The notes under the pieces were generated by a model, which was not told the origin of the DNA, did no database searches, and worked only from the letters and a program-made list of their open reading frames with translations. A stretch of DNA of 30,548 nucleotides, taken from the IMG/VR virus record IMGVR_UViG_3300042898_003871, positions 1 through 30,548 of that record; one strand, written 5' to 3'. The translations under genes were made by a program, and so were the position numbers. Positions 1,572 through 26,560 of this stretch are shown in pieces. The stretch's first letter is position 1. Every line of letters starts with the position of its first letter. The DNA is from a virus.

Positions 1572-2579
1572 ATGAATTGGTTAAAATTTTTAGTAGGGGT
1601 ATCAGCAGTTATCATCGCAGGATGTGCTGCATTCTTTTCCGTAACAGGATTAGGTGTTCTCTTTGCAGGAGCATCTACTTCTGTTATGGTAATGGCGGGT
1701 TCATTAGAATTCGCTAAATTAGTGGCTGCAACCTATCTAAAACAGACTTGGGATGAGATTAAGGGGTTTAATAAGTGGTATTTAACCCTTTCGGTGGGTA
1801 TCCTGATGATAATTACCTCTGCGGGTATATTTGGTTACCTTTCTAATGCATTCCAACAGCAATCCTTACAATTACAACAAGTGGATAGGGAAGTTGCGGT
1901 GTGGCAAACGAAAATTGACCAAAATAACACCCAAATTACCCAATTATCCACTCAAATTACCGAATCTAACACCAATCAGGGTAAAATTTTGGATGGTGGT
2001 AAGGTAAATAGTAGATTACTTCGTTCAGTTGATAATAGAGATAGAGAAATTAGTAAATTGAACGATAAAATTGGTAAATTACAGGAGGCTAATGCTAAAA
2101 ATACCGAAGAAATCAACAAAATTAAGATTGCTAACATCGATTTAGAGAAAGAAGTAGGTGGATTTAGGTTTGTGGCGGATGCTTTTGGTATAGAACTCAA
2201 AAATGTGGTTAAATTCTTCATATTTTTGATTGTCTTTGTGTTTGACCCACTCGCAATTGCTCTTATTATCGCATTTAATGGGTTGGTAATGAAAAGAGAG
2301 GAAGAAAAAGTACCTTCTATGTATGAAGTTTACGGAGAAACACCGATATTGAAATCAGAGAAGGATGCTGAGGTGTTTTTTAATGAAATAGAGAATCCAA
2401 CCGAACCAAATGAACAATTAGTCAATGCGGCTACTCAATATAATGAGGACATAAAAAAAAACGAAATTAATTCCACTACAACAAATGTGGAAAAAGATGA
2501 AGTGATACTAACCGATGAAGAATTAAAAAAAAAGTCAATGAATCCGTTGATGAAAATGTGGAAGAAGATATCGACTTAA
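1572..2579 (+). CDS. Membrane protein with central coiled coil (zero-frame product)
   Basis: A 335-residue protein with hydrophobic segments near residues 5-25, 27-50 and 70-92, a long heptad-like region (about 95-190, rich in Q, N, K, E) and a further membrane segment near 213-240, then an acidic tail. Similar 'coil-containing' membrane proteins occur in marine phages; the function is unknown. The last 14 residues (SMNPLMKMWKKIST) are unlike the acidic tail before them, and begin just after an A-AAA-AAG heptamer at 2528-2534. A -1 shift there would join the protein to the frame ending at 2857 and give about 428 residues. The late-type promoter at 1364 probably drives it together with the 58-residue protein. 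Confidence 0.7.
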   Translation: MNWLKFLVGVSAVIIAGCAAFFSVTGLGVLFAGASTSVMVMAGSLEFAKLVAATYLKQTWDEIKGFNKWYLTLSVGILMIITSAGIFGYLSNAFQQQSLQLQQVDREVAVWQTKIDQNNTQITQLSTQITESNTNQGKILDGGKVNSRLLRSVDNRDREISKLNDKIGKLQEANAKNTEEINKIKIANIDLEKEVGGFRFVADAFGIELKNVVKFFIFLIVFVFDPLAIALIIAFNGLVMKREEEKVPSMYEVYGETPILKSEKDAEVFFNEIENPTEPNEQLVNAATQYNEDIKKNEINSTTTNVEKDEVILTDEELKKKSMNPLMKMWKKIST

Positions 2580-2857
2580 CAAAGCTTACCAGAGATTTTA
2601 GTGTAAGGGGAATTGATTTAGATGGAGATGGTTCTATTGATGGAATTGATACGGATGGAGATGGTTTAATAAATAAAGTAACAGCTCACCCAAACAGGGC
2701 ATTGGTAATGAAAGATATGTTACCATATTATGCTAGACCTGAATTTAATTGGAATGACACGCAAAAGTGGATAAACGACCAAAATGCAGTAAACTATTGG
2801 TTAACACATAGGGAGCCAATTAAATATCCTACTGATTTTAATTCAAAAACATATTGA
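2519..2857 (+). CDS. C-terminal part of the frameshift protein, with Ca-binding-like loops
   Basis: This frame is open from 2519, after a stop at 2516-2518, to TAA 2857. Its only plausible independent start is GTG 2558, inside the upstream gene. It holds two adjacent DxDGDG loops, DLDGDGSIDGID and DTDGDGLINK, with acidic residues at EF-hand loop positions 1, 3, 5 and 9, like dockerin or thrombospondin-type-3 calcium sites. An aromatic tail follows (FNWNDTQKWINDQNAVNYW). I read it as the C-terminal domain of the protein starting at 1572, made by -1 frameshifting, rather than as a separate gene. If separate, it would be a 99-residue protein starting at GTG 2558. Its side of the membrane is unknown. 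Confidence 0.55.
   Translation, partial: RIKKKVNESVDENVEEDIDLTKLTRDFSVRGIDLDGDGSIDGIDTDGDGLINKVTAHPNRALVMKDMLPYYARPEFNWNDTQKWINDQNAVNYWLTHREPIKYPTDFNSKTY
2528..2534 (+). other. Candidate -1 ribosomal frameshift site, A-AAA-AAG
   Basis: Nine A residues (2525-2533) followed by G. Parsed in the frame of the gene starting at 1572, this gives A AAA AAG, the heptamer used by the E. coli dnaX frameshift. After a -1 slip the next codon is GTC at 2534-2536, and the frame continues VNESVDENVEEDIDLTKL into the downstream EF-hand-like region, an acidic run that continues the zero-frame tail naturally. I see no strong downstream hairpin and no upstream Shine-Dalgarno stimulator. Alternatives are transcriptional slippage on the A tract or a homopolymer sequencing error. 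Confidence 0.6.
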
Positions 2858-2913: not shown

Positions 2914-3465
2914 ATGAAATTAACTAAAATTGAATCAACTCCTTTTACAAAATCAGATGAGGAATTGATATTAAAAACATTAAAGCGTTACGCTAATAAC
3001 ACAAAACTTTCAGCAGTTTGTACCAGAAGTGTTAATCTACCATTCAGAGCATTCTATCTTAACACAGAAACTCCACTTCTTTTAATCAATCCATACATCA
3101 CAAAATATTCTAATGATGCATTTCAATCGACTGAGATGTCTGAATTCGATACTAATGGTAAAAATAGAATTGTAGTTAGAGCGTTTTCAATAGAAGTTCA
3201 AACTGATAATTTAGGATTAGTGGTATTCAAAGGTGATATGGAAAATGATAGAGAAGGATTGGATGAGTGTATTTTTGCTCAACAAATGATTGACCTATTA
3301 GATGGTATAACAATTGCTGATAAGAATATAAATCAACCAATTAAAAAGCCAATTCAGTATGAAAGAAACCAAATAGTTATGGCTAAAGACCCTAATGGTA
3401 ATATTGAACAAATAAAATATAAACATATATCAAAGTATATGGAAAAGGGTTACGTTTTAATGTAA
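2914..3465 (+). CDS. Peptide-deformylase-like protein, catalytic residues lost
   Basis: 183 residues with the outline of peptide deformylase (PDF). LLLINPYI matches the LINP strand of PDF, and the late helix reads CIFAQQMIDLLDGI where E. coli PDF has IQHEMDHLVGKL. The three key helix residues are replaced (H to Q124, E to M125, H to L128), and the EGCLS cysteine loop is not recognisable near residues 72-80. Metal binding and deformylation are therefore not expected; it is probably a PDF-fold pseudoenzyme, perhaps binding ribosomes or nascent chains. Active PDFs are known in marine T4-like phages. Residues 140-183 are an extra tail ending IKYKHISKYMEKGYVLM. First gene of the gp55 operon. The homology is my own reading of short motifs and needs a profile check. 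Confidence 0.55.
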   Translation: MKLTKIESTPFTKSDEELILKTLKRYANNTKLSAVCTRSVNLPFRAFYLNTETPLLLINPYITKYSNDAFQSTEMSEFDTNGKNRIVVRAFSIEVQTDNLGLVVFKGDMENDREGLDECIFAQQMIDLLDGITIADKNINQPIKKPIQYERNQIVMAKDPNGNIEQIKYKHISKYMEKGYVLM

Positions 3466-26113: not shown

Positions 26114-26560
26114 ATGTGGAAATATGATAAGGGGGAAATCTCAGATATAAGTGAGATTCCCTATGGAGCATTTGGGTTTGTATATGAGGTGTTGCATAAA
26201 CCATCTGGTAAGAAATATATCGGAAGAAAACAACTTATATCAGTAACTACAAAAGCATTAGGTAAAAAAGAACTAGCTGAAATAACTGATAAAAGAGCTA
26301 GTAAGAAAAAGAAGGTTCAAAAGGAGAGTGATTGGAAAACATATTATGGTTCTCACTCTGAAATCAAACAACTTATAAAAGAAGGTAAGCAAGAAGAATT
26401 TGAAAGAAAGATTCTTGAATTTGCCTTTGCCCCAAAGCATCTTACTTATTTAGAAACAAAGTATCTATTCTCATTAGGAGTATTGGAAAATGGAGATGTC
26501 TATTTTAATGATAATATATTAGGAAAGTTTTTCCGAAAAGATTTACCAACATATGAGTGA
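26114..26560 (+). CDS. Free-standing GIY-YIG endonuclease
   Basis: 148 residues. The two-part GIY-YIG motif is seen as FGFVYEVLHKPSGKKYIGRK (about residues 20-39): the GIY half is varied to FVY, the YIG half is intact with its following arginine. Then SDWKTYYGSHSEIKQLIKEG and YLETKYLFSLGVL, whose E is the likely catalytic glutamate. This WKTYYGS / ...LE form is common in phage-encoded free-standing endonucleases related to I-TevI/Seg enzymes. No separate DNA-binding domain follows. It stands alone with no intron visible. Its 3' end overlaps the next SGNH-like gene by eight bases. Confidence 0.7.
   Translation: MWKYDKGEISDISEIPYGAFGFVYEVLHKPSGKKYIGRKQLISVTTKALGKKELAEITDKRASKKKKVQKESDWKTYYGSHSEIKQLIKEGKQEEFERKILEFAFAPKHLTYLETKYLFSLGVLENGDVYFNDNILGKFFRKDLPTYE

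Follow-up and report, generated by a model that had tools for sequence, protein, structure and literature searches.

The window, the whole stretch of DNA analysed here, is a 30.5-kb virus record (30,548 nucleotides). It encodes T4-type baseplate wedge proteins, Hsp20, and a Nol-like carbamoyltransferase, together with primase-like and thymidylate synthase genes, and the phage is T4-like in that it carries baseplate genes. Directly 3' of the gene studied here, A/B, positions 2914-3465 encode a peptide-deformylase-like protein (Pfam PF01327, just under the cut-off). A homing-endonuclease-like protein is encoded at 26114-26560, near the primase and thymidylate synthase genes; its profile matches were PHROG 447 (labelled NAD synthetase) and PHROGs 7363 and 314 (homing endonuclease). 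The features of A/B are as follows.

1572..2579, plus strand: gene A, the 0-frame ORF, a membrane coiled-coil protein of 335 aa (the short form, made without a slip), with homologues in >200 loci
1572..2306, plus strand: conserved core of A, defined by alignments, in which membrane-length helices are predicted, along with a long coiled coil and a last membrane helix bearing a conserved FDP-A motif
2453..2461, plus strand: tract 1, A9 (ATA AAA AAA AAC), with an A9-A11 counterpart in fused relatives
2525..2533, plus strand: tract 2, the putative A9 slip site (TTA AAA AAA AAG), including the heptamer A_AAA_AAG at 2528-2534
2535..2579, plus strand: 0-frame tail past the slip site, 14 aa and then TAA
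2534..2857, plus strand: B, the -1 frame extension of 107 aa (long form, 428 aa), recognized by selection and by its relatives
2615..2632, plus strand: DxDGDG loop 1 of B (DLDGDG), in columns mostly invariant in the B alignment
2648..2665, plus strand: DxDGDG loop 2 of B (DTDGDG), from the same alignment

Frames and predicted proteins

The letters at 2520-2540 are GAATTAAAAAAAAAGTCAATG, with A9 at 2525-2533 and G at 2534, and the 0-frame codons around tract 2 are GAA TTA AAA AAA AAG TCA ATG. The heptamer A_AAA_AAG therefore lies in the phase claimed by the original prediction, as read directly from codons TTA AAA AAA AAG. Beyond tract 2, the 0 frame adds the 14 residues SMNPLMKMWKKIST before a stop at 2577-2579, whereas the -1 frame continues as VNESVDENVEEDIDLTKL...GIDLDGDGSIDGIDTDGDGL... 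through the two DxDGDG loops to a stop at 2855-2857. The predicted product sizes of about 335 and 428 residues also agreed with the sequence (335 aa, and 321+107 = 428 aa), so that the earlier observation of the A9 tract and its frames was correct. Its statement that the -1 frame has no convincing start holds, with the correction that a GTG is present at 2558, 8 codons into B. Tract 1 sits 72 bases upstream of tract 2 in the same gene. One extra A (or a -1 shift) at tract 1 gives CGA AAT TAA, with the stop at 2468-2470, and the predicted product is a form of ~299 aa.

The AlphaFold2 model of the A core was all-helical with good confidence (pLDDT 87), with helices at residues 2-30, 32-58, 66-141, 147-187, 189-205, and 209-244, and A is probably an inner-membrane protein. 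Membrane proteins that phages make in two lengths often function in assembly or lysis. A fold search with the A core against the PDB returned only generic helical proteins with E above 0.05, and matches among viral models were confined to uncharacterised phage proteins. One of 36 A family members matched DUF4407 (Pfam PF14362) weakly (E 1.2e-4); the window protein did not. A Rz-like spanin identity was rejected, as PHROG matches reached only E 0.003-0.008 over the coiled coil and the model suggests several membrane-length helices. Homologues of A were also found in isolated jumbo and T4-like phages. Further homologues (L313-L370) were found in contigs assigned to Bdellovibrionales, Verrucomicrobia/Opitutia, a few Flavobacteriales, and others; these contigs are either prophage, mis-binned phage, or cellular.

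The structure of B was predicted with moderate confidence (pLDDT 78). No match to B was found in the isolated-phage collection or in Pfam, PDB sequence matches were weak (E 0.46 or worse), and the best hit in the fold search had an E of 8.8, which is no match. Searches of Pfam, PDB sequence, and fold thus gave B no known relatives outside the A/B family. The loops had been described as Ca-binding-like: the resemblance of the DxDGDG motif stands, and the description gained no Pfam or convincing PDB match. EF-hand, dockerin, and TSP3 identities were considered for B and set aside, since Pfam, PDB sequence, and fold searches offered nothing beyond the motif.

Relatives, selection, and recurrence of the poly-A tracts

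Relatives of A were encoded by 70 viral loci. The nearest clade shares an identical TTAAAAAAAAAGTC followed by B in the -1 frame, and in a wider set of relatives A and B form a single ORF of ~350-480 aa. A search started from B rather than A, and restricted to loci away from contig ends, yielded 110 distinct B-encoding loci: 89 with A and B in one frame, 21 with exactly A9 and B in the -1 frame, and none with B as a separate gene. The full-length fused homologues that the original prediction had proposed to look for thus exist in most loci, and its central claim, programmed -1 recoding joining A to B, was supported by the 21 A9/-1 loci, the fused relatives, and the lack of separate B genes. 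In most slip loci of the window clade, the 0-frame stop is a TAG one codon past the run (TCG/TCA TAG). In a close relative, L012 (867-876), A10 occupies the junction of the window and A and B are naturally fused; this fusion is either ancestral or has arisen by reversion. The slip loci all come from metagenomes.

We examined selection on the -1 frame extensions. Pooled pN/pS of B in the window group was 0.35 (-1 frame, 45 pairs), indicating purifying selection, and differences by -1-frame codon position were 862/731/1521, highest at the third position. The -1 tail of the L162 group was likewise under purifying selection (pooled pN/pS 0.365). Selection was weaker in the L116 group (pN/pS 0.61), where A itself gave 0.54. 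Third -1-frame positions held most differences in all three groups. Given the purifying selection and the excess of third-position differences, B looks translated. Most slip loci examined have no ATG, GTG, or TTG upstream of the DxDGDG loops, so slippage would be the economical route to this translation.

Tracts at which a slip reaches the extension were termed class I, and in-frame tracts of fused loci at which a slip reaches a stop were termed class II. In-frame A9-A11 runs occur in the A/B linker of 39 of 90 distinct fused loci, mostly in the context ...KKKEIN/KKNEID..., and the flanking residues vary (EIN, EID, ETN, ETD, ETS, VEI, AEI, KID). The tracts listed as class II include a few runs at other places in the tail or at the junction of L012; in 40 of the 41, adding one A, or shifting by -1, brought up a stop no more than two codons on, compared with 35% of control positions. 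In fused relatives, which have only this kind of tract, the long form would be the default product, and a slip would yield the short one. The older tract, of the tract 1 type, is kept in L055 and in most of the window clade, and the window gene carries both types in tandem.

Class I arrangements were also found in divergent A proteins. An exact-site search detected TTA-A9-GTCTTAG, identical to the window site, in another A homologue, L077, where the -1 frame opens into an unrelated coiled coil of 294 aa; this suggests that the tail was replaced at the slip point. The L077 arrangement is located at L077:7401-8294 of contig IMGVR_UViG_3300025413_001414. Matches of the pattern TTAAAAAAAAAGTCNTAG in L074, L082, and L083 were attributed to chance, as no A homologue is present there. 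A family-wide scan added L095 (A10, then T), L096 (A10, then G), and L116, L213, L214, and L215 (A10, with next base G, G, C, and T, respectively). It also added the L162 clade, which shares ~35-38% identity with the window protein and has A9, TAG/TAA immediately after it, and tails of 45-118 aa; in L190 of this clade, A9 is followed by T. In the divergent slip loci, the 0-frame stop came 0-1 codons past the run (baseline for a stop within one codon, 0.16), and the -1 tails were unrelated to B. Tract-less sisters of the L162 clade (such as L191-L205) reach similar C-terminal peptides in frame, so the L162-clade -1 ORFs probably encode normal tails. The -1 open frames of L195 and L210 have no poly-A near the stop and probably represent the next gene.

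Mapped on a tree built from 165 A cores, the slip state required 6 changes, at least 5 of them forced by well-supported branches, although recombination of tails may mean that fewer of these origins were independent. The arrangement has thus evolved repeatedly, and in both orientations, in lineages that may not be fully independent. Most class I loci (drawn from L001-L011, L077, L095, L096, L116, and the L162 group) use TAG as the stop past the run. As a control, the 29 other genes of the window end in TAA (25) or TGA (4), and none in TAG. The TAG preference may be a by-product of acidic residues in the -1 frame, or it may play a part in slippage.

Probable mode of slippage and alternative explanations

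We compared the features conserved around the tracts. What is conserved is the run length, 9-10 A in class I and 9-11 in class II, and not A-AAA-AAG. Among A-runs of at least seven, those reaching nine made up 2.7% in the other long ORFs of these phages and 31 of 42 close to the stop of the A gene, where lengths were bimodal (9 runs of 7, 2 of 8, 25 of 9, and 6 of 10); probabilities calculated from these lengths treat lineages as independent. With this enrichment and with 89 fused and 21 A9/-1 loci, the A9/-1 arrangement is beyond chance. Each of the 21 distinct slip loci in the window clade has exactly A9, as do all distinct slip loci of the L162 group; the L116 group, L095, and L096 have A10. 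The base past the run varied among G, T, and C (AAT in L190, L095, and L215; AAC in L214). Downstream RNA structure was not enriched across 23 loci (mean z -0.14 for 50 nt and 0.00 for 80 nt; only nested structures were considered), nor were SD-like stimulators (2.26 versus 2.03 in controls), a signal that may be irrelevant in Bacteroidota hosts. The alternative frame was always the one given by adding one A, and in that one-base-insertion frame the downstream ORF was open and conserved.

Escherichia coli RNA polymerase slips on more than seven A's and inserts about three times as often as it deletes (PMC6260861), and conservation of a 9A length across homologues is a published criterion for purposeful transcriptional slippage (PMC1088944). 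The conserved run length, the varying next base, the lack of a structure or SD signal, and the insertion direction fit transcriptional slippage better, and the different codon phase of poly-A in the fused relatives points further in that direction. The dnaX-type A-AAA-AAG heptamer put forward as the signal in the original prediction was not upheld, since only the run is conserved, the next base varies, and no structure or SD-like stimulator was detected.

Programmed -1 ribosomal frameshifting at A-AAA-AAG or A-AAA-AAA, as in dnaX, would give the same two products and is the main competitor, although we consider it rather unlikely. The heptamer at 2528-2534 is in the correct phase. An A_AAA_AAA shifty heptamer is in phase in every class I tract, so that ribosomal slippage would yield the same frames, which counts against RNA polymerase; most of these tracts end in AAG. 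The last A of every class I run falls at codon position 2, as expected under a ribosomal rule but also if the runs arose by loss of one A from AAA codons. Sites lacking stimulators can work in some tailed phages (PMC5009743). However, six A's and a G would suffice for the ribosome, yet every lineage has at least nine; the variable next base and the lack of structure or SD-like enrichment also argue against it, and class II tracts sit in other codon phases than class I. Slippage at nine A's is suppressed in some bacteria, which would count against slippage here if the host were one of them.

The remaining explanations do without recoding. Long A runs are mutable, and L012 with its fused A10 junction is what DNA-level phase variation between A9 (short) and A10 (fused) would produce. 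We regard this as improbable, because the 21 B slip loci all have A9 though they are mutually diverged (pooled pS of B, 0.55), the L162 group is equally uniform, a 0-frame stop adjoins the run in most loci, and purifying selection on B persists out of frame. If B were a gene apart, with a start of its own or translated through reinitiation, it could draw on the GTG at 2558 of the window; the absence of start codons ahead of the loops in most slip loci examined and of any separate B gene among the 110 loci makes this highly improbable. The chance that sequencing or assembly has altered an ordinary fused gene, or that the gene broke only recently, is close to negligible: homopolymers are error-prone and fused relatives exist, but a miscounted A is unlikely when the 21 distinct slip loci of the clade, taken from different assemblies, agree on A9, and the same run recurs in divergent lineages with adjacent 0-frame stops in most.

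From these comparisons, it is almost certain that this single gene is set up to yield two proteins, one short and one long, and recoding of some kind very probably occurs at the A/B poly-A tract. The choice of slipping machine leans toward RNA polymerase, with a substantial share left to the ribosome. We therefore favour, as the probable reading, a two-product gene with programmed poly-A slippage, most likely by RNA polymerase. Where the A9 at 2525-2533 is copied and read exactly, ribosomes would stop soon afterwards and release the 335-aa protein. One extra A in the mRNA, most likely introduced by RNA polymerase, would carry translation into B and give the 428-aa form; by a less likely route, the ribosome would move back one base on AAA-AAA and reach the same extension. 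A slip at the older tract, 2453-2461, would give a form ending at about residue 299. Sequence itself shows the frames, the conservation of run length, fusion in homologues, constraint on B, and recurrent evolution in either orientation; slippage in infected cells, RNA polymerase as the slipper, and a ratio of forms that matters are inferred. More tentatively, the family may have repeatedly evolved A9-A11 transcriptional slippage that sets the short/long ratio, with switches of the default form and exchange of tails at the slip point; in the window clade, tandem tracts of opposite effect could then yield three isoforms (~299, 335, and 428 aa).

Comparison with known systems

If real, the A/B family would allow the gain, loss, and inversion of recoding in evolution to be tested directly, as the same gene occurs fused, as a slip-to-extend form, and as a slip-to-truncate form. 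A/B proteins are cut short by standard gene callers, which miss their tails. The family also flags an unstudied phage membrane protein, with apparent selection on the ratio of its two forms. In open papers, we found no published phage gene family with recurrent conserved poly-A slippage; the nearest mention was a single gene, the CPt10 methyltransferase gene, which has a frame-shift in a poly-A tract and was no more than suggested to be expressed by slippage (PMC2853527).

The closest parallels are Citrobacter rodentium tssM1 and Yersinia pseudotuberculosis tssM3, in which transcriptional slippage has been proven in both orientations (PMC4256274). As in these genes, A/B appears to encode an inner-membrane protein, with poly-A shortly 5' of the 0-frame stop and no SD or structure signal, and the same two orientations are found, slippage adding a C-terminal domain in tssM1 and truncating the product in tssM3. 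The tssM genes differ in being bacterial secretion genes with A11 and slippage shown experimentally, whereas A/B belongs to an unrelated phage family, has A9-A11, and is known from sequence only. Unlike tssM, the A/B tracts recur in many lineages and sometimes occur as two in tandem.

Thermus thermophilus dnaX (PMC1088944, PMC5009743), a different gene, likewise has a sense-strand A9 near the ORF end, nearby shifted-frame stops, and products of two lengths; its long form is in frame, as in class II, and tract 2 of the window is the reverse. E. coli dnaX (PMC5009743) shares the in-frame A-AAA-AAG and the -1 direction. Its site has stimulators, whereas none was detected in A/B, where the next base is not conserved and the runs are longer than needed; unlike in E. 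coli dnaX, the short form at the A/B slip site is the 0-frame product. Short and C-terminally extended forms are also known from lambda gpG/gpGT, the T3/T7 coat extension, and Ig-like extensions (PMC5009743), and some relatives of such phage proteins encode the same extension in frame, as in A/B. Those cases concern tail or capsid proteins with ribosomal slip sites, whereas A/B combines a membrane coiled-coil protein with poly-A.
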